Source: Flavobacteriales bacterium (GTDB lineage: Bacteria > Bacteroidota > Bacteroidia > CAIKAF01). Taken from it: a stretch of DNA of 33,158 nt. Below are positions 2 to 9,337 of the stretch, piece after piece; the first letter of the stretch is position 1; the number at the start of each line of letters is the position of its first letter. The notes beneath the pieces were generated by a model. It ran no database searches, was not told where the DNA came from, and saw nothing but the letters and a program-made list of their open reading frames with translations. The translations under genes and the position numbers were made by a program. The DNA is taken from positions 94,741 through 127,898 of the forward strand of contig JAKRSD010000023.1 in the NCBI GenBank assembly GCA_022402535.1. Reading direction: 5' to 3'.

Positions 2-2104
2 CTTTGGAAAAAAGTAAAACCATCCCTTTCTGCAGGAAGAGTACAATCGGTTGCCGTAAAACTAATTGTGGAAAGAGAACGGGAAAGAAATGCATTTAAA
101 AGTACCTCATCCTTTAAAGTAACCGGAAAATTCGCGGAATCCTCCAAAGAATTTAAAGCGGAACTGGCCGTTAAATTCGATAACGAAGGCAAAGCCGAGG
201 ACTTCTTAAAGTCGTGCATGGGCGCTCAGTTTAAAGTAGATAATGTAGAAACCAAACCGGCCAAAAGAACGCCCGCAGCACCGTTTACCACATCCACCCT
301 GCAACAGGAAGCCGGGCGAAAACTGGGCTACACCGTTCAGAGAACCATGCAGATTGCCCAGCGGCTGTATGAAGAAGGATTCATAACTTATATGAGGACA
401 GACTCCGTAAACCTTTCGGATACTGCCATACAGGGTGCCGAATCGGCAATTGTGAGCAATTACGGTAAAGGGTTTCATCAGGTTCGTAAATACGCCACAA
501 AATCAAAAGGCGCCCAGGAAGCCCACGAAGCGATAAGACCCACTTACTTTGAAAAACAACATGTTTCAAGCGATTCATCCATGCAAAAATTGTATGAATT
601 AATCTGGAAACGCACCGTAGCTTCTCAAATGGCCGATGCCCGGCTAGAAAAAACACAGATTGATATCAAAGCGGCAGGAGTCAGCGAAAAGTTTGTAGCC
701 AGCGGTGAAGTAATAAAATTCGAAGGCTTCCTGAAAGTATATATCGAAGAAAAAGACGAAGATCTGGACGAATCAGAAAACACACAGGATCAGAATCTTC
801 CTGCATTACAAAAAGGACAGTCGTTAACATGCAATGAAATAACGGCCGTGCAACGCTTTTCAATGCCTCCCGCAAAATATACGGAAGCCGGTTTAGTGAA
901 GAAACTGGAAGAACTCGGTATCGGAAGACCTTCTACTTATGCACCTACTATCAGCACCATACAGAAAAGAGGCTATGTAGAAAAGAAAGAAATAGAAGGT
1001 GTAAAACGGAACTATTCGGTAATTACACTTAAAAACGATTCGCTTAAAAAAGAAACCAAATCAGAAAACACCGGAGCCGAAAAAGGGAAACTTTCACCCA
1101 CGGATATTGGCATCCTGGTTACCGACTTTCTATCCGAAAATTTCAAGCAGATTATGGATTACCACTTCACGGCTAAAGTGGAAAAAGAGTTCGATGATAT
1201 TGCCGAAGGCAATCTGGTTTGGAATAAAATGATTGAAGAATTCTACGGCCCATTCCACAACTCGGTAGAATTTACAGAAAAAAATGCCGAAAGAGCCCGC
1301 GGAAAAAGAGAACTCGGAAAAGATCCGGCTACCGGAAAATCAGTTTATGCATTGGTAGGCCGATATGGTCCGATGGTTCAAATTGGGGAAACAGAAGACG
1401 AAGAGAAACCGAAATATGCTACCATAAAGAGCAACCAAAGCATTGAAACCATTACTCTGGAGGATGCTCTGAGCCTGTTCAGATTACCCCTCTCACTTGG
1501 CGATTTTGAAGGAAAAGAAATCATCATCGGAGAAGGCCGTTTTGGCCCTTATGTTAAATGGGGCGAGCAATTTATTTCCTTACCCAGGGGTGAAGACCCT
1601 CTATCCGTGGACATGTCCCGGGCAATAGAAGTAATTAAAGAAAAACAAGAAACCGATGCCCCGATTGCATCATACCAAAACAAGCCGGTAACAAAAGGAA
1701 AAGGGCGGTTCGGACCTTTCATCAAATGGGATAATCTGTTCATAAATGTGCCCAAAGCCTATAACTTCGATAACCTATCACAAAAAGAAATTGAAGAATT
1801 AATCAGCAAAAAGATTGAAAAAGAATCCAACCGTTTTATCCAACAATGGGAAGATGAAAAAATTGCACTGGAAAATGGACGTTGGGGACCATTTATCCGC
1901 TTTGGGAAAAACATGTTGAAAATTTTGCCGAAGGAAGATAAATCTAAATATGCTCCTGAAGAAATAGCGGCACTTTCTTTAGAAGAAGTGAAAAAAATGA
2001 TTGTAGCCCAAATGCCCGAAGCGTTTGAAAAAGCCCCTAAGAAAAAGGCGGCACCGAAAAAGAAAGCGGCCACAAAATCAACGGCAAAAACCAAAAAGAA
2101 ATAA
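2..2104 (+). CDS. topA: DNA topoisomerase I, 3' part (5' end outside window)
   Basis: Type IA topoisomerase that relaxes negative supercoils through a transient 5'-phosphotyrosine link. The reading frame is already open at base 2 and reads LWKKVKPSLSAGRVQSVAVK, a conserved topA stretch, so the gene begins left of the window; the GTG at 68 is internal. The Toprim domain is therefore missing from view. The catalytic motif ITYMRTDS is present, with the active Tyr at codon 389-391, and the later core motifs follow (RPSTYAPTISTIQKRGY). The C-terminus carries four GRxGP-type repeats (GRYGPMVQIG, GRFGPYVKWG, GRFGPFIKWD, GRWGPFIRFG) in place of the Cys4 zinc ribbons of E. coli TopA, and ends in a Lys/Ala-rich tail suited to binding DNA. 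The next gene starts 11 bp after the stop, so the two are probably cotranscribed. Confidence 0.97.
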   Translation, partial: LWKKVKPSLSAGRVQSVAVKLIVERERERNAFKSTSSFKVTGKFAESSKEFKAELAVKFDNEGKAEDFLKSCMGAQFKVDNVETKPAKRTPAAPFTTSTLQQEAGRKLGYTVQRTMQIAQRLYEEGFITYMRTDSVNLSDTAIQGAESAIVSNYGKGFHQVRKYATKSKGAQEAHEAIRPTYFEKQHVSSDSSMQKLYELIWKRTVASQMADARLEKTQIDIKAAGVSEKFVASGEVIKFEGFLKVYIEEKDEDLDESENTQDQNLPALQKGQSLTCNEITAVQRFSMPPAKYTEAGLVKKLEELGIGRPSTYAPTISTIQKRGYVEKKEIEGVKRNYSVITLKNDSLKKETKSENTGAEKGKLSPTDIGILVTDFLSENFKQIMDYHFTAKVEKEFDDIAEGNLVWNKMIEEFYGPFHNSVEFTEKNAERARGKRELGKDPATGKSVYALVGRYGPMVQIGETEDEEKPKYATIKSNQSIETITLEDALSLFRLPLSLGDFEGKEIIIGEGRFGPYVKWGEQFISLPRGEDPLSVDMSRAIEVIKEKQETDAPIASYQNKPVTKGKGRFGPFIKWDNLFINVPKAYNFDNLSQKEIEELISKKIEKESNRFIQQWEDEKIALENGRWGPFIRFGKNMLKILPKEDKSKYAPEEIAALSLEEVKKMIVAQMPEAFEKAPKKKAAPKKKAATKSTAKTKKK

Positions 2105-2115
2105 TGAAGTAAGCT

Positions 2116-3300
2116 ATGGACTACCTTTCCTTGTTTCTTCCCATTCCGGATTCTATTTTACCGGAACAATTCAACCGCGAACAACTCGGATCCCGAATCA
2201 GGGCATTCAGTCCCGCAGGCGGGTTTCCCGAATACAATGAAGACAGCAAACCCGATTTTGCAATTATCGGTGTAAACATGTATCAGTTCAAACATCCATC
2301 AAACGAATTAATACATGTACCCAATTTAGTCCGCAAAGAACTCTACTCATTGTTCACAGGCACATTCAGCAATGTAAACATTGCCGACTGGGGTAATTTG
2401 CGCATTTCAGAAAATGAAGCAGAAAACAAAAACAAACTGATACTTGCCTTATCCGAAGCGATTCAAAACAACATTATTCCTATCATTATAGGGGGAGGTC
2501 AGGAAATCACCTGGCTAAACTATTTGGCATACAAAAAAATGGGAAGGTTTTTTAACCTGTTGAGTTTAGATCCCAAACCTGATTTTCAGGCAGATGCTGA
2601 GGATATTAATTCAGATAACTACCTGTCTCACATTATATTCGACCCTGATAATTACATGTTTAATTACAGCATATTGGGGTATCAAAATTATTTGGTTGCT
2701 CCTTCAGTCATGGACACCATGGAAAAACTATTCTTTGAAGTGCTGCGATTGGGTGATATTAGGGCTATTCCCGAAATTGCAGAGCCTGTAATCCGGGATG
2801 CCGATTGCATTTCGTTGGATATGAATAGTGTGAAAGCATCCGATGCCCAGGCTGTATTGCATCCGGAACCCAACGGCTACCGCAGTGAGGAAATATGTAA
2901 GATGGCCAGATACTGCGGAATGAGTCATAAATTAAACTCTTTCGGACTGTACAACCTTTCTCCGCATGAAGAAAACCGCTCCACATTAAAATTAGCAGCA
3001 CAGGTTATATGGCATCTCTTAGATGGGTTTTACAGCAGAATGGAAGAATCGTCAGATTTCACCTCCAATGAATTCATTCGTTACGATGTGTCGTCCCCCG
3101 ATACCGGATTTGACATCCGTTTCTATAAAAACAGATTAACCGGACGTTGGTGGATGAGCTTACCTTTGAATGAAGAAAAAGAGATTAAATTTGGGTTAAG
3201 AGAGTACATCATTCCCTGTACAGAACAGGATTATTTGGAAAGTTTACGGGGCGAAATCCCAGAAAGATGGTTTAAAGCAGAAAAAAAACTTAATTTTTAA
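2116..3300 (+). CDS. Arginase/formimidoylglutamase-fold protein with degenerate metal site
   Basis: 394 aa protein of the ureohydrolase (arginase/agmatinase/HutG) superfamily. Family enzymes hydrolyse guanidino or formimino groups with a two-manganese centre held by GGGH, DxHxD and SxDxD motifs. Here these read GGGQE (Gln129), LDPKPD (Asp152, Lys154, Asp156) and SLDMN (Asp235, Asn237). By this reading three of six expected ligands are changed (His to Gln, His to Lys, Asp to Asn), so it is unlikely to work as a normal Mn2+ hydrolase. It lies 11 bp after topA and 112-148 bp before porP of the type IX secretion operon. There is no signal peptide, so it should be cytoplasmic. Annotation as formimidoylglutamase would be misleading; a binding or structural role is an inference. 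Confidence 0.8.
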   Translation: MDYLSLFLPIPDSILPEQFNREQLGSRIRAFSPAGGFPEYNEDSKPDFAIIGVNMYQFKHPSNELIHVPNLVRKELYSLFTGTFSNVNIADWGNLRISENEAENKNKLILALSEAIQNNIIPIIIGGGQEITWLNYLAYKKMGRFFNLLSLDPKPDFQADAEDINSDNYLSHIIFDPDNYMFNYSILGYQNYLVAPSVMDTMEKLFFEVLRLGDIRAIPEIAEPVIRDADCISLDMNSVKASDAQAVLHPEPNGYRSEEICKMARYCGMSHKLNSFGLYNLSPHEENRSTLKLAAQVIWHLLDGFYSRMEESSDFTSNEFIRYDVSSPDTGFDIRFYKNRLTGRWWMSLPLNEEKEIKFGLREYIIPCTEQDYLESLRGEIPERWFKAEKKLNF

Positions 3301-3391
3301 TTAACTGTTTTTCATAGGCTTAGCCAAGTTATCAACCGATTTATAAACATTTTTAATAAATAGATTTGGTATTGTCTGGGAAATAATTGCA

Positions 3392-3399
3392 TATATTTA
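3392..3399 (+). promoter_or_regulatory. Possible -7 box for porP operon
   Basis: TATATTTA matches the Bacteroidota -7 consensus TAnnTTTG at seven of eight positions, with a TTG about 17 bp upstream (3372-3374). A transcript starting near 3406 gives a leader of about 43 nt to the ATG at 3449. It would leave almost no leader for the alternative TTG/ATG starts at 3413/3416, which favours 3449 as the porP start. Confidence 0.35.
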
Positions 3400-3448
3400 C
3401 GACTTAAATCTATTGATGTTTTATTTGAGAAAACTATACTCTACACTT

Positions 3449-4411
3449 ATGAATCTAAGGGCTATCGTCGTTGCGGGACTAACATTTACAGCATTACTGG
3501 GAAAAGTTCATGCACAGCAAGATCCTCAATTTACGCAGTTTTATTTCAATAAACTCATGATAAATCCTGCTACCGCGGGGTATCATGATAATATTTGTGT
3601 TAACCTTTTCAACCGTTTCCAGTGGACAGGTTTTGAGAAAGCCCCGTTTACCAATCAATTGTCGGTAGATGCGAACTTAAAAACATTCATTAAGCACGAT
3701 ATAGGTGTGGGTTTAACCGTGTTTAATGATAATATCGGTTTTTTCAACACCACGGGTCTTCGTTTGGCCGGAGCTTACCGATTCCAACTCGGTCCAGGAC
3801 GTCTTGGCGTCGGTTTAGACTTAGGGTTCCAAAACATGATTGTTAACGGAGCCTCTTGGAATCCTCCCCAAACCAGCATAGACGCATCTTTACCGATAAC
3901 TGGAAACTCTATGGTTTTTGATGCAGGTTTAGGCGTATTTTACCATACCCCACTCTGGTATGCAGGTATTTCAGCCAAACAGTTACCCGGCATGCGATTC
4001 AAAGATTTTTCATACCGCGCAGCACGCCATATGTTTTTCACCGGCGGATATACCTTTAAAGCCGTGGGCGGAAACCCCAACATTGACATTAATCCCAATG
4101 CAATCGTGAAAACTGATTTAGCTACCGTATCATTCGATGTAAACGTAAACATGATTTACAAAGAAAAATATTGGGGCGGTTTAACTTACCGCTTCCAAGA
4201 TGCCGTAGCACTTAATTTGGGAATGGTACTTTATCAGACTCCCAAACATTCGTTTATAGCAGGTTATTCATATGATCTGACAACATCCCGATTATTACGT
4301 TTCAGCTACGGTACACATGAATTATTTTTACGTTACTGCTTCAAAATGGAGCTTCCTCCCATGGGTGGTGGGTTTCGTGTAAGAGATTTGGATTCAAAAC
4401 GTGACTGGTAA
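3449..4411 (+). CDS. porP: PorP/SprF family type IX secretion outer-membrane protein
   Basis: Outer-membrane beta-barrel of the PorP/SprF family, needed for type IX secretion and, in gliding species, for placing adhesins on the surface. The family signature is clear: after the signal peptide comes QQDPQFTQFYFNKLMINPA, followed by NRFQW and alternating aromatic/glycine beta strands to the C-terminus. The start is taken as ATG 3449, giving 320 aa and a signal peptide MNLRAIVVAGLTFTALLGKVHA cut before QQDP; in-frame TTG/ATG at 3413/3416 would add 11-12 residues. Placement directly ahead of gldK matches the porPKLMN order known from Porphyromonas gingivalis, whereas sprF in Flavobacterium johnsoniae lies behind sprE elsewhere. 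The 94 bp gap to gldK holds a small hairpin. Confidence 0.9.
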   Translation: MNLRAIVVAGLTFTALLGKVHAQQDPQFTQFYFNKLMINPATAGYHDNICVNLFNRFQWTGFEKAPFTNQLSVDANLKTFIKHDIGVGLTVFNDNIGFFNTTGLRLAGAYRFQLGPGRLGVGLDLGFQNMIVNGASWNPPQTSIDASLPITGNSMVFDAGLGVFYHTPLWYAGISAKQLPGMRFKDFSYRAARHMFFTGGYTFKAVGGNPNIDINPNAIVKTDLATVSFDVNVNMIYKEKYWGGLTYRFQDAVALNLGMVLYQTPKHSFIAGYSYDLTTSRLLRFSYGTHELFLRYCFKMELPPMGGGFRVRDLDSKRDW

Positions 4412-4505: not shown

Positions 4506-5837
4506 ATGAAAAAGAACAATTTAAAAAAGCTTGCCATTCTTGGCGCAGTTGCAACCGTATTTGTAAGTTGTAACAACGGTAATATGGGCCAGCTGACAGG
4601 GGTTCCAAACAGACCTAAATGGTATCAGGCAGATCCTTACGGAACTGTTTACATTCCAATGGGAAGTTTCAACATGGGTCCATCTGATCAGGATGTACCC
4701 AACAACTTCACGCAACAGTCAAAAACAGTTTCTGTTCAGGCGTTCTATATGGACCAGACAGAAATTACAAATAATGAATATCGGCAGTTCGTTGCCTATG
4801 TCAAAGACTCAATGGCTCGCCAGGTGCTTGGAGATAATGGGTTAGATGCGGACTTCTTTATTCAAGAAGAGGAATATGAAGATTGGAATATTGCAGTAGG
4901 TACTCCCGATCCACCTCTTCTTAACTACAGAACCAAAATTAAGTGGGATGATGTAGAACAGGCCGAGATTTTGGAGGAGTTATACTATCCGCCCAATGAA
5001 AGATTCTACTCAAGAAGAGAAATAGATACCCGTAAACTTATTTATGAGTATTACTGGATTGACTATAAAGCAGCGGCCAATAACAGACCTCAGGGTTTGA
5101 AAGACCGTTCTGTATTCATCCGTAGAGATAAAGTGGGAGTGTATCCTGATACATTGGTTTGGATTGCAGACTTCACGTATTCATACAATGAACCTTTGAC
5201 CAAAATGTATTTTTGGCACCCTGCTTATGATGATTATCCTGTAGTTGGAATAACTTGGAAACAAGCCAATGCTTTCAGCATCTGGAGAACCAATTTAATG
5301 AACCAGTTCCTCACAAGCCGTGGTGATTTCCCTGTACATGACTTCAGATTACCAACGGAAGCAGAATGGGAATACGCTGCCCGTGGAGGATTAGATTTGA
5401 GTCCATATCCTTGGGGTGGTCCATACATCCGTAATTCAAAAGGTTGTTTCTTAGGTAACTTTAAACCGTTGAGAGGTAACTACATTGACGATGGTGGATT
5501 CCACACTGTACCAGCCAATTCATACAATCCTAACGAATACGGGTTATACTGTATGGCAGGTAACGTAGCTGAATGGTGTAGAGATGCTTTTGAAGAAAGT
5601 GGATATAGCTTTTCCCATGACCTGAACCCAGATTTATATTATGAAGCGAAAGATGCTGCCGATGGTGGTGTACCTGCTCTTCGTAGAAAAGTAATTCGTG
5701 GTGGTTCATGGAAAGATATAGGCTTTTACCTTCAAGTATCTTCCCGTTCTTATGAATACCAAGATTCTTGTAAAAGTTATATAGGATTCCGTAACGTTCA
5801 AACCTTTATGGGTAGAGCTAAAGAAGACTATAAATAA
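4506..5837 (+). CDS. gldK: GldK/PorK type IX secretion lipoprotein
   Basis: Lipoprotein of the T9SS periplasmic ring, where it pairs with GldN/PorN under the outer membrane. Residues 1-22 form a lipoprotein signal with lipobox VFVSC and acylated Cys22. The mature part is a formylglycine-generating-enzyme-like (FGE-sulfatase) fold from about residue 45 to 435: PMGSFNMGPSD, then MDQTEITNNEYRQF, FRLPTEAEWEYAARGG, GNVAEWCRDAF, VIRGGSWKD and YIGFRNVQ. This fold is characteristic of GldK, which is structural rather than enzymatic. A long insertion (about residues 105-245) separates the two halves, as usual in the family; 443 aa is typical. It is second in the porP-gldKLMN operon, with a 137 bp gap to gldL. 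Confidence 0.95.
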   Translation: MKKNNLKKLAILGAVATVFVSCNNGNMGQLTGVPNRPKWYQADPYGTVYIPMGSFNMGPSDQDVPNNFTQQSKTVSVQAFYMDQTEITNNEYRQFVAYVKDSMARQVLGDNGLDADFFIQEEEYEDWNIAVGTPDPPLLNYRTKIKWDDVEQAEILEELYYPPNERFYSRREIDTRKLIYEYYWIDYKAAANNRPQGLKDRSVFIRRDKVGVYPDTLVWIADFTYSYNEPLTKMYFWHPAYDDYPVVGITWKQANAFSIWRTNLMNQFLTSRGDFPVHDFRLPTEAEWEYAARGGLDLSPYPWGGPYIRNSKGCFLGNFKPLRGNYIDDGGFHTVPANSYNPNEYGLYCMAGNVAEWCRDAFEESGYSFSHDLNPDLYYEAKDAADGGVPALRRKVIRGGSWKDIGFYLQVSSRSYEYQDSCKSYIGFRNVQTFMGRAKEDYK

Positions 5838-5974
5838 CATACATCCCCTGTCACGATTCTTTTTTTAATTTTTTAAGTAAAAACTGCATTCCTTCACAAA
5901 GCTGAATGGGAAAAGGCGGTAAATTAGCATTGTGAATTTTTTAAATCAATAAACAAGTAAACAAAAGAAAACGT
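5838..5974 (+). other. 137 bp AT-rich spacer between gldK and gldL
   Basis: The longest gap inside the secretion operon. It is AT-rich and has no open frame of note. TAGCATTG at 5925-5932 is one mismatch from the TAnnTTTG -7 consensus, so a second promoter serving the gldLMN motor genes is possible. No stable hairpin or terminator was seen. Confidence 0.3.
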
Positions 5975-6799
5975 ATGAAATTCCTACACACTAAAAAAGG
6001 AAAGATTGTAATGAACTTCGTCTACGGGATGGGGGCAGCAGTAGTAATCGTGGGTGCGATGTTTAAAATTATGCACTGGCCTGGGGCGAATGAGATGTTG
6101 ATTATAGGTCTTTCTACAGAGGCAGTTATTTTCGCCATTTCGGCATTTGATCCACCTGCAGAAGATTTAGATTGGACACTCGTTTATCCGGAATTGGCCG
6201 GTTTACCTGGTGAAGAAGGCGGACATGGCCGTGGTGGAGCAGTATCTGGTAATATTGTTCTTAAAGATTCTGTAACCCAAGAACTTGATAAAATGTTGGC
6301 CGAAGCTAAAATCGGTCCCGAATTGTTAGAAAGTTTAGGTTCAAGCATTAAAAGATTAGGTGAAAACACAAACCAATTAGCTGATATTTCCGGAGCTAGT
6401 TTAGCTACCGATGAGTACGTAAAAAGTGTTTCGTCTGCAAGCAAAACCGTTTCTCAACTATCTGATTCTTATGTAAAAGCAGCCGAGTCATTGACAGGGT
6501 TAAGCGTATCAAACGCAGATGGACAAAGCTACGGTGAACAACTTCAGAGAGTATCTAAGAATTTATCAGCACTGAACAACGTATATGAATTACAAATTTC
6601 AGGTTCTCAAGATTACTTAGAGGCTACTTCTAAAGTGTATACCAACATTGCACAATTATTGAATAACCTAGGAGATTCTGTAGAAGATACTAAACGTTAC
6701 AAAACAGAAATCGCTAAATTAGGTGAGAACTTATCAGCATTGAATACCGTTTACGGTAATATGTTGTCTGCAATGAACATTCGTCCTCAGGGAGCATAA
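5975..6799 (+). CDS. gldL: GldL/PorL type IX secretion motor subunit
   Basis: Inner-membrane subunit of the proton-driven GldLM motor that powers T9SS and gliding. The N-terminus has the conserved MNFVYGMGAAVVIVGAMFKI helix, a HWPG turn and a second helix LIIGLSTEAVIFAISAF. Lys31 in helix 1 and Glu49 in helix 2 match the functionally important Lys27 and Glu49 described for F. johnsoniae GldL, so the motor should be active. From about residue 75 the protein is cytoplasmic and largely helical (ELDKMLAEAKI..., SLGDSVEDTKRYKTEIAKLG), typical for the family. Length 274 aa is slightly above the F. johnsoniae protein. It lies 24 bp before gldM. Confidence 0.95.
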   Translation: MKFLHTKKGKIVMNFVYGMGAAVVIVGAMFKIMHWPGANEMLIIGLSTEAVIFAISAFDPPAEDLDWTLVYPELAGLPGEEGGHGRGGAVSGNIVLKDSVTQELDKMLAEAKIGPELLESLGSSIKRLGENTNQLADISGASLATDEYVKSVSSASKTVSQLSDSYVKAAESLTGLSVSNADGQSYGEQLQRVSKNLSALNNVYELQISGSQDYLEATSKVYTNIAQLLNNLGDSVEDTKRYKTEIAKLGENLSALNTVYGNMLSAMNIRPQGA

Positions 6800-6809
6800 T
6801 TAATTTAAT

Positions 6810-6815
6810 AAGGAG
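6810..6815 (+). promoter_or_regulatory. Shine-Dalgarno-like site before gldM
   Basis: AAGGAG lies 8 nt before the gldM ATG (6824), an ideal anti-SD match and distance. None of the other starts examined closely here shows a comparable site, in keeping with the general lack of SD use in Bacteroidota. Confidence 0.5.
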
Positions 6816-6823
6816 ATTATACA

Positions 6824-8425
6824 ATGGCATCAGGAAAAGCGTCACCCCGTCAGAAGATGATTAACATGATGTACCTCGTGTTAACAGCACTACTGGCATT
6901 AAACGTATCAAAAGAAATTCTTGAAGCGTTTGTAGTCGTAAATGAAGGCATGTTGTTACAAAAGACCAATATTGAGAAAAATAACGGTCGTATCTATGGA
7001 GATTTTGAACAACAAAAAATTCTTTATAAAGAAAATTTCGAGCGAATCAAACCGTTCTATGAAAACGCTCAGCTTCTCAGAAAAATATCTGATGAACTGG
7101 TAAATGAAATAGAGGTTATGAAAGCCGAATTGATTGCGACTGCTGAACAAATCACAAAAGAAAAAGCACTGGAAGATGGTATGACGGCTAAAGATCTTAC
7201 GAAATTGGAAGATTATGATATTCCAACGTATTATTTTGGCACAGACGACCCTGCAAAACCTGCTCGTGGTGAAGGTAAAGCGGCTGAACTGAAAAAGAAA
7301 ATAGCTGATTACAGAGAAAAATTACTCAGTAAACAATTTTTCGATAAAATTTCAGACACTTCAAAAGTTCAGTTAAACTTATCTACTGAAGATCCTATCA
7401 GCTTCAAAACTAAACAAAAAGAGCCTTGGGAGATGTTTTACTTCTATCATCTTCCTATGCCTGCAGCGTTAACGGAGCTTACTAAATGGCAAAATAACGT
7501 AAGAGCTGCTGAAGGTGCGATTTTAAGTTATCTGTACGATAAAATCAGTGCCAGCTCATACAAATTTGATGCAATCAAAGCTGCCATTATTCCTAAATCA
7601 AACGTAGTTTTTGCTGGTAATGCTTTTGAAGCTGATATATTCTTAGCCGCTTACAATACCAGTGAAAGACCTACCATTTTAGTTAATGGTTCTCCGGTTA
7701 CAGAATTCTCTGAAGACGGAAGAGGTTTATTCAAAGTTCAAGCATCGGGTGAAGGTGAAAAAACCGTTACAGGGGTTATTAAAATTAAAGATCCTATAAC
7801 CGGTGGCGAAAGAGAAGAGCCATTTGAAACCAAGTATCAGGTTTCAAAACCAATGATGACGGTAACACCAGATCAAATGAATGTGTTCTACCGTGGATTA
7901 GATAACCCGATTACAGTTTCAGTACCCGGTGTGGCTCCAAATCAAATTACAGCTACTTGCTCCGGTTGTAATTCATTTACCGGCGGTAATGGAAAATACA
8001 TCGTAAAACCCGGATCAGGAAATGAAGCGAACATCAGTGTCTCAGTAAAGCTTACTGATGGCAAAGTGCAAAATATGGGAGCTGCTAAATTCCGTGTAAA
8101 ACGTATTCCTGACCCACAGATTAAATTCGGTAGTAAAAGTACAGGTGAGGTAATTACGGTTCCTGAAGCACAAAACAGTGCCCTGATTCCGTTAATGCAA
8201 GATTTTGACTTCAACGTATTTGCTCAAATCAAAAGTTTTGCAATTTCTTACGAGTTGAACGGTTCGATTCAAGATAAACAGGTTTCTGGCAATAAAATCC
8301 CTTCTGATGTGGCAACCAACATTGCCCGTATGCAGAAAGGCAAGAAAATTTATTTCGACAAAATTATGATCGGAATGCCTGACGGAACAACAAGAACGCA
8401 ATCAGCAGTATTCACAATCAGATAA
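6824..8425 (+). CDS. gldM: GldM/PorM type IX secretion motor rotor
   Basis: Bitopic protein that pairs with GldL in the inner membrane and reaches across the periplasm to the GldK/GldN ring, passing motor torque to the secretion machine. The N-terminus MASGKASPRQKMINMMYLVL is classic, with Arg9 matching the residue proposed to interact with GldL Glu49, and one transmembrane helix at about 13-31. The long periplasmic part contains the helical region (about 35-220) followed by three beta domains; a Cys pair CSGC lies near residue 385. 533 aa is close to the 510-525 aa of known GldM/PorM. Its ATG has an SD-like site, and gldN follows after 10 bp. Confidence 0.95.
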   Translation: MASGKASPRQKMINMMYLVLTALLALNVSKEILEAFVVVNEGMLLQKTNIEKNNGRIYGDFEQQKILYKENFERIKPFYENAQLLRKISDELVNEIEVMKAELIATAEQITKEKALEDGMTAKDLTKLEDYDIPTYYFGTDDPAKPARGEGKAAELKKKIADYREKLLSKQFFDKISDTSKVQLNLSTEDPISFKTKQKEPWEMFYFYHLPMPAALTELTKWQNNVRAAEGAILSYLYDKISASSYKFDAIKAAIIPKSNVVFAGNAFEADIFLAAYNTSERPTILVNGSPVTEFSEDGRGLFKVQASGEGEKTVTGVIKIKDPITGGEREEPFETKYQVSKPMMTVTPDQMNVFYRGLDNPITVSVPGVAPNQITATCSGCNSFTGGNGKYIVKPGSGNEANISVSVKLTDGKVQNMGAAKFRVKRIPDPQIKFGSKSTGEVITVPEAQNSALIPLMQDFDFNVFAQIKSFAISYELNGSIQDKQVSGNKIPSDVATNIARMQKGKKIYFDKIMIGMPDGTTRTQSAVFTIR

Positions 8426-8435
8426 ATTTAGCATT

Positions 8436-9290
8436 ATGAAAGCTATTAAAATCATCATCGTCCTGTTTTGCGGAGTTTTCGCACTCCCAAACATACAAGC
8501 TCAGGTATTAGAGCCAAACGACGGCGTGTATGACAAAGTACATACCGAAACCCGTCGTGTTGTGCCTTACACTTCCTTGAGAGAAGCTGATGTTATGTGG
8601 TCCAGAAGAATTTGGAGAACAGTGGATTTACGTGAAAAAATGAATCAATTTTTCTACTATCCATCTGAACCGACTAACGGACGTGAAAATTTAATCACCA
8701 TCATTATGAATGCCATTCTGGTTGACAAAACCGTGGCGGCTTATGATGCGATTTATGATGATTTTAAAATGAAGCTGACTTTATCTGAAGTAGCTGCCAT
8801 CGGTGCCGATACGCTTCAGTTATCCTTGTATAGAGATTATCCACCATATGATCAGTTTGATACTACTGTAATTAAACAGTTGGATGTTACCACTATCAAA
8901 AAGTTCAAAATTAAAGAAGATTGGGTTTTTGATAAACAAAAGTCAGTGATGGAAGCTCGTATAATTGGTATCTGTCCCGTTCGTGAGCGTCTTGATCCAC
9001 AAACCGGTGAATTCAGAGGTTACTCTGACATGTTCTGGGTATACTTCCCTGAATTGAGAAGAGTAATTGCGAATAAGGAGATTTATAATCGTTTTAACAA
9101 CGTAGCTCAACAAATTACTTATGATGACGTGTTCATGAAAAGAATGTTTGCCTCATACATTCATAAAGAAGATAACGTGTATGACAGACGTATTGAAGAC
9201 TATATGAAAAATGGATTAGAAGCTCTTTTAGAATCTGAAGACATAAAAGATAAAATTCGAAATTTCGAGCATGATCTTTGGGAACAATAA
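8436..9290 (+). CDS. gldN: GldN/PorN type IX secretion ring protein
   Basis: Periplasmic partner of GldK in the T9SS ring. It has a Sec signal peptide MKAIKIIIVLFCGVFALPNIQA, cut before QVLEPNDG. Family motifs are present: VYDKVHTETRRVVPYTSLRE, DVMWSRRIWRTVDLREKMNQ, FYYPSEP near the N-terminus, then IKEDWVFDKQKSVMEARIIG and a central IGICPV...DMFWVYFPELR block. 284 aa is near the family norm (290-360). It is the last gene of the porP-gldKLMN operon: a strong terminator begins 18 bp after the stop. Confidence 0.95.
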   Translation: MKAIKIIIVLFCGVFALPNIQAQVLEPNDGVYDKVHTETRRVVPYTSLREADVMWSRRIWRTVDLREKMNQFFYYPSEPTNGRENLITIIMNAILVDKTVAAYDAIYDDFKMKLTLSEVAAIGADTLQLSLYRDYPPYDQFDTTVIKQLDVTTIKKFKIKEDWVFDKQKSVMEARIIGICPVRERLDPQTGEFRGYSDMFWVYFPELRRVIANKEIYNRFNNVAQQITYDDVFMKRMFASYIHKEDNVYDRRIEDYMKNGLEALLESEDIKDKIRNFEHDLWEQ

Positions 9291-9308: not shown

Positions 9309-9337
9309 AAAGCCCCTGAATAATCAGGGGCTTTTTT
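9309..9337 (+). terminator. Rho-independent terminator after gldN
   Basis: An 11-bp perfect stem AAAGCCCCTGA / TCAGGGGCTTT with loop ATAA runs into a T-rich tail (CTTTTTTATT). It marks the end of the secretion operon and separates it from the DUF58 gene. Confidence 0.92.

Follow-up and report, generated by a model that had tools for sequence, protein, structure and literature searches.

What is a member of the arginase family with substituted metal-ligand motifs doing between a topoisomerase gene and a type IX secretion system (T9SS) operon, and is it still an enzyme? The gene in question, here called the pseudo-ureohydrolase gene, is an open reading frame of 394 codons (2116..3300, + strand, with an ATG start and no internal stop) in the 33,158-nucleotide stretch of Flavobacteriales contig JAKRSD010000023.1 that was analysed (the window). 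Its product has an arginase/formiminoglutamase fold followed by a clade-specific C-terminal domain. Upstream on the same strand lies topA (68..2104, its 5' end cut by the window edge), and downstream, also on the + strand, lie a porP/sprF family gene (3416..4411; TIGR03519) and the T9SS ring and motor genes gldK, gldL, gldM and gldN (4506..9290). Directly after gldN is a strong terminator-like hairpin (9309-9334) that likely marks the end of the gldKLMN operon. The porP, gldK, gldL, gldM and gldN products each score above their own NCBIfam cut-offs and only the incomplete topA falls below, and these matches bear out the placement given by an earlier reading made from the sequence alone (the sequence-only reading). 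No signal peptide is evident in the N-terminal sequence of the protein, and it is therefore presumed to be cytoplasmic.

The AlphaFold2 model of the window protein (pLDDT 93.3, from 62 alignment rows) shows the ureohydrolase fold intact, as had been claimed, and overlays on the T. cruzi formiminoglutamase (2a0m; Z 34.1, rmsd 2.4 over 278 residues). Model residues ~12-310 match formiminoglutamases with Z of 29-34 and other ureohydrolases with Z of ~26-31. The Pfam arginase family PF00491 matches the protein with 57.1 bits (cut-off 22) and matches all 62 relatives scanned. The narrower equivalog models do not accept it: it scores 55.1 bits against a cut-off of 229.15 for formimidoylglutamase HutG (TIGR01227) and 19.7 bits against 174.3 for agmatinase (TIGR01230). 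It is highly improbable that the protein is a working formimidoylglutamase, as homology-based labels would have it. Among family models hutG does fit the window protein best, and it matches 62 of 62 relatives as well, but the score of 55 bits lies far below the cut-off of 229 and the metal-B site is lost throughout the group; the warning that such an automatic label would be wrong was justified.

In arginase I, metal A is bound by H101, D124, D128 and D232, and metal B by D124, H126, D232 and D234; the metal-A and metal-B labels used below are this textbook assignment, which we take to carry over to the window protein. When aligned with canonical members, a set that includes two paralogues from the window's own genome (L001 and L002), the protein differs in exactly three of the six ligand columns (H to Q129, H to K154 and D to N237). 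All three motifs, on the + strand, are exactly those first reported: GGGQE (2491..2505, residues 126-130) is the first metal-A ligand site, with His replaced by Gln129; DPKPD (2569..2583, residues 152-156) keeps the bridging Asp152 and the metal-A ligand Asp156, with the metal-B His replaced by Lys154; and SLDMN (2812..2826, residues 233-237) keeps the bridging Asp235, with the metal-B Asp replaced by Asn237. The six positions thus read Q, D, K, D, D, N where a catalytic ureohydrolase has H, D, H, D, D, D for two Mn ions. No intact His/Asp set, which would have undone the pseudoenzyme reading, occurs elsewhere in the chain, and the model overlays the ureohydrolases over residues ~12-310, so alignment and model together describe what appears to be an arginase fold without the ligands for the catalytic metal pair.

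The substituted pattern is present in 110 relatives, which excludes chance or an assembly slip. Among them the loss is uneven. The H101 position is Gln in 94, and the ligand Asp residues are kept in most, at D124 (Asp152 of the window protein) in 99, at D128 in 95 and at D232 (Asp235) in 104. The H126 position is His in just two relatives and the D234 position is Asp in just one, and in none of the 110 do both of these private metal-B ligands occur together. By this alignment the metal-B site is destroyed throughout the clade, and that loss is a stronger argument for inactivity than is the Gln at the first position. The GGGH position carries an amide, Asn, in the T. cruzi formiminoglutamase as well (the title of PDB entry 4myn is that of its N114H variant) and in several canonical-type relatives, so Q129 alone is no proof of inactivity. 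The six positions of the canonical relatives are HDHDDD or NDHDDD, with a single HDHNDD. We note that formiminoglutamase-like proteins from other classes of the phylum include four with Asn for the first metal His (L115, L122, L123 and L127) and one with Asn for Asp128 (L114), the other five ligands being intact in each case.

The metal-A set of Gln (rarely His or Asn) and three Asp is retained in 93 of the 110 relatives, with Q/D/D/D in the window protein; its retention looks selected, and it could hold a single bound metal. A living enzyme of new chemistry with one metal in the A site (Gln/Asp/Asp/Asp) would explain this retention, including the near-constancy of Asp152 and Asp235. Such an enzyme is nevertheless unlikely, given that the site has been dismantled in relatives from the window's own family, where all or almost all of the ligands are gone in several members (the six positions read ATRPNG, GSRPNG, KSTNDG or SSVHNA) and the remaining protein is conserved; an enzyme that depended on the site should not tolerate this unless its function had shifted there. 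Because the site has decayed in several members of that family and the remainder has not, the clade's function would seem to have no need of it. The pseudoenzyme reading is well supported by alignment and model, and it extends from the single protein for which it was first advanced to the whole class, with the refinement that metal B is gone and the metal-A set is mostly kept.

The pseudo-ureohydrolase is kept across the class Bacteroidia. Relatives, mostly 25-41% identical, were found in 141 of the 148 genomes of a class-wide sample (~95%), and 56 of 60 near genomes have one. No full-length match occurred beyond Bacteroidia in a phylum-wide sample; the matches outside the class stop near profile position 320, and the ones whose sequence was read out are ordinary members of the family. 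The substituted form is one Bacteroidia clade with support of 100/100, as the sequence-only reading had proposed checking, on a branch of 1.5 changes per site in a tree of 62 proteins; this tree is midpoint-rooted and its outgroup sample is modest, so that it does not fix the exact sister group. The clade has its own motif, F207-R211-G213-E223-P224-R227, and its invariant residues lie in the 207-230 region and in the C-terminal domain.

The C-terminal domain (3043..3297, + strand, residues 310-394) is a clade-specific stretch of about 85 residues with the predicted order bbb-a-b-a-a and with F336, W345, W346, C368, Y373, P382 and W385 invariant; the canonical-type relatives compared do not have it. 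Modelled alone it has a pLDDT of 82. A family profile search gave no match above noise for it, no solved structure is related to it by sequence, and no fold match was significant (best Foldseek E 0.74, best Z 4.6). The domain was never found separate from the arginase domain in 150 Bacteroidales genomes, in which domain and full protein occur in the same genomes and the same reading frames; a 43-residue match in this set (E 7e-4) contains stops and was dismissed. One genome (G623) matched the arginase part only and was counted as lacking the pseudo-ureohydrolase. In the complete Bacteroidales genome G654, a shortened copy (L131, 9995-10984, - strand) has an unrecognisable metal site and an intact C-terminal domain, and lies directly behind topA.

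The surroundings of the gene point to topA more than to the secretion genes. In the window the gap to topA is 11 nt and the gap to porP is 115 nt (3301..3415), with no terminator-like site in either. The wider spacer holds TAGATTTG (3361-3368, + strand), a candidate promoter element that fits the Bacteroidota -7 consensus TAnnTTTG and has no TTG at -33. Across loci the topA-to-gene gap has a median of 36 nt with some overlaps (n=51), and the gap to porP or gldK is never below 106 nt (median 145, n=29). By an open-reading-frame count, topA comes next upstream on the same strand in 50 of ~78 named loci with readable upstream sequence; this count is preferred to one based on tblastn ends (48/78), which is an undercount because the lysine-rich TopA tail stays unaligned. 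Downstream, gldK is present in 27 of 80 named loci (the best matches of one scan and not a random sample), most of which have topA on the other side; 22 of the 60 loci whose downstream flank is readable have gldK, gldL or gldM within 6 kb in the same orientation; and in ~75 of the 140 class genomes with both genes, by a hand count of coordinates, the gene precedes gldL by 3-4 kb and has the same orientation. Since the gap to topA is short and that to porP/gldK wide, topA is the better candidate for transcription partner, and the simplest reading puts the gene on the topA transcript, with gldKLMN usually transcribed from a start of their own.

Does the protein then work with TopA, in supercoiling or chromosome upkeep, with the secretion genes as bystanders? 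Upstream topA is commoner than downstream gldK, often with overlapping or near-zero gaps, and the link persists at L131, in a genome without GldL and SprA. We still regard such a partnership as quite unlikely: co-transcription with a housekeeping gene may serve just steady expression, lineages without the pseudo-ureohydrolase thrive on topA alone, and the protein is acidic (net charge -18) with no recognised DNA-binding domain.

Several features of the flanks are recorded here for their own sake. There seems to be a wider conserved order of (LptE-like, NtrC-like, MiaB-like, on the opposite strand) - topA - pseudo-ureohydrolase - (porP) - gldKLMN, seen in the flanks of L045, L058, L065, L084, L087, L089, L095, L104, L105, L110 and L111; the LptE-like, NtrC-like and MiaB-like names come solely from inspection of the sequences. 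At loci with neither topA nor gldKLMN adjoining, the flanking genes vary by lineage. A deoxyhypusine-synthase-like gene directly precedes the pseudo-ureohydrolase gene in five rumen Bacteroidales (L049, L068, L074, L075 and L100), and in L068, L075 and L100 the gene is followed by one for a secreted agmatine-deiminase-like protein, whose C-terminus in the L068 copy resembles, by eye, a T9SS sorting tail.

The proposed link with secretion or gliding, and the suggestion that the substituted form tracks gldKLMN, can be judged from co-occurrence with GldL, the single T9SS marker used; draft genomes can miss genes, and two GldL-negative genomes (G361 and G572) still have SprA. In the class sample of 148 genomes both genes are present in 140, the pseudo-ureohydrolase alone in one (G359), GldL alone in three and neither in four. 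Among 150 Bacteroidales, with G623 removed from the positives, the corresponding counts are 102 with both, one with the pseudo-ureohydrolase alone (G654), 37 with GldL alone and 10 with neither. The two exceptions, G654 and G359, lack both GldL and SprA; the protein of the former is partly decayed and the latter is a 95% complete draft. The gene is thus nearly restricted to T9SS genomes, yet T9SS does not require it: it is missing from 37 of 139 GldL-positive Bacteroidales, and in family f32 it is found in none of 81 genomes, 56 of which have GldL, so the secretion genes persist without it. Co-loss with GldL was not shown in the Bacteroidales sample: most of its GldL-negative genomes belong to families in which the gene is absent from GldL-positive members too, so the two losses are not simply coupled. 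As a separate observation, the GldL homologues of family f32 (G432, G463 and others) are far weaker than those elsewhere in the class (best E ~1e-38, against 1e-80), and these weak matches fall in genomes without the pseudo-ureohydrolase.

An accessory of T9SS or gliding, for example a cytoplasmic factor acting on GldL/GldM expression, assembly or motor control, has in its favour the near-confinement to GldL-positive genomes (140 against one in the class, ~102 against one in Bacteroidales) and the frequent adjacency to gldK/L/M. We consider it possible but on the whole rather unlikely, because of the many GldL-positive genomes without the gene (all 56 in f32 among them), the spacing that groups the gene with topA, and the fact that the Fisher p of ~3e-5 for association with GldL in Bacteroidales, calculated with G623 still counted as positive, ignores shared descent. 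The link to secretion and gliding is correlative, and an accessory role is possible.

The explanation that we favour, with somewhat better than even confidence, is that the gene encodes a cytoplasmic pseudo-ureohydrolase that works as a binding protein, is expressed with topA and plays no more than an accessory part in type IX secretion. From an arginase-superfamily ancestor came a single clade, within Bacteroidia, in which the metal-B ligands are lost and the 85-residue C-terminal domain is present; the fold, the F207-R211-G213-E223-P224-R227 motif and the C-terminal residues have been kept even where the metal site decayed. With the two-metal centre missing, the protein should not hydrolyse amidines or guanidines. 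As judged from sequence and model, it is probably a ligand- or protein-binding scaffold throughout the class: the old pocket may bind a small guanidine- or glutamate-like ligand, or the C-terminal domain may bind a protein partner. It would be expressed along with topA; the type IX secretion genes would be its neighbours by ancestry. A bolder version strikes us as distinctly doubtful: in it a former formiminoglutamase-like enzyme, equipped with a new C-terminal domain, would be a sensor or scaffold in the cytoplasm of most Bacteroidia and would adjust both gliding and type IX secretion in response to a guanidine signal or an amino-acid signal. Whatever its role, a protein in ~95% of sampled Bacteroidia, conserved at tens of positions, would be misnamed by homology, and the wrong enzyme name should stay out of metabolic models. 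It is present in gliding Flavobacterium species, which are amenable to genetics. A role in secretion would make it a so far overlooked accessory of a system that matters in periodontal disease and in fish disease; failing that, it would be a clean and ancient case of an enzyme fold turned binding protein. The open-access literature gave no function for it. Open-access full texts held no paper joining arginase or formiminoglutamase with gldKLMN, T9SS or a Bacteroidota pseudoenzyme, a result that shows little, and any two of gldK, topA and arginase occurred together only in unrelated medical papers.

Among known systems, the T9SS porP-gldKLMN genes (porPKLMN in P. gingivalis) are frequent neighbours of the pseudo-ureohydrolase gene in Bacteroidia, but the latter is missing from some GldL genomes and is spaced separately, and a T9SS review names no arginase-like component (PMC5445135). 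HutG (T. cruzi 2a0m/4mxr, B. subtilis 3m1r and V. cholerae 1xfk) has the same fold over residues ~12-310 (Z 29-34). The window protein shares with it Asp152, Asp156, Asp235 and the "S[VL]KxSD" stretch after the third motif, and with the T. cruzi enzyme an amide at the GGGH position; it differs in having no metal-B His and Asp, in its extra C-terminal domain and in falling far below the family cut-off. MetCb of metformin hydrolase (8x3g, 8ryi and 8snf) is likewise an arginase-fold pseudoenzyme with replaced metal ligands, and metformin hydrolase chains top the Foldseek list for our model. MetCb has lost five of six ligands and is the metal-free binding partner of active MetCa (PMC11271267), whereas the window protein has lost three of six, has an added C-terminal domain and has no paired active gene adjoining. 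By this precedent the window protein might, as a subunit, regulate a canonical ureohydrolase of its own cell, and its host genome does have two canonical paralogues (L001 and L002). That arrangement is very unlikely, since the only arginase-family gene of a 100% complete genome (G153) scores weakly against Pfam, as expected of the pseudo form, so that this genome seems to have no canonical homologue, and since the flanking genes examined around the pseudo-ureohydrolase gene include no canonical paralogue that recurs as its partner. The T. brucei arginase-like protein, a eukaryotic member of the arginase superfamily, is described as inactive and missing key catalytic residues (Hai et al. 2015, as cited in PMC10820115), and is likened to the window protein by that description and not by structure. 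Arginase-fold pseudoenzymes are thus already known from MetCb and T. brucei, and the present clade differs from them in being class-wide and in having a C-terminal domain of its own.
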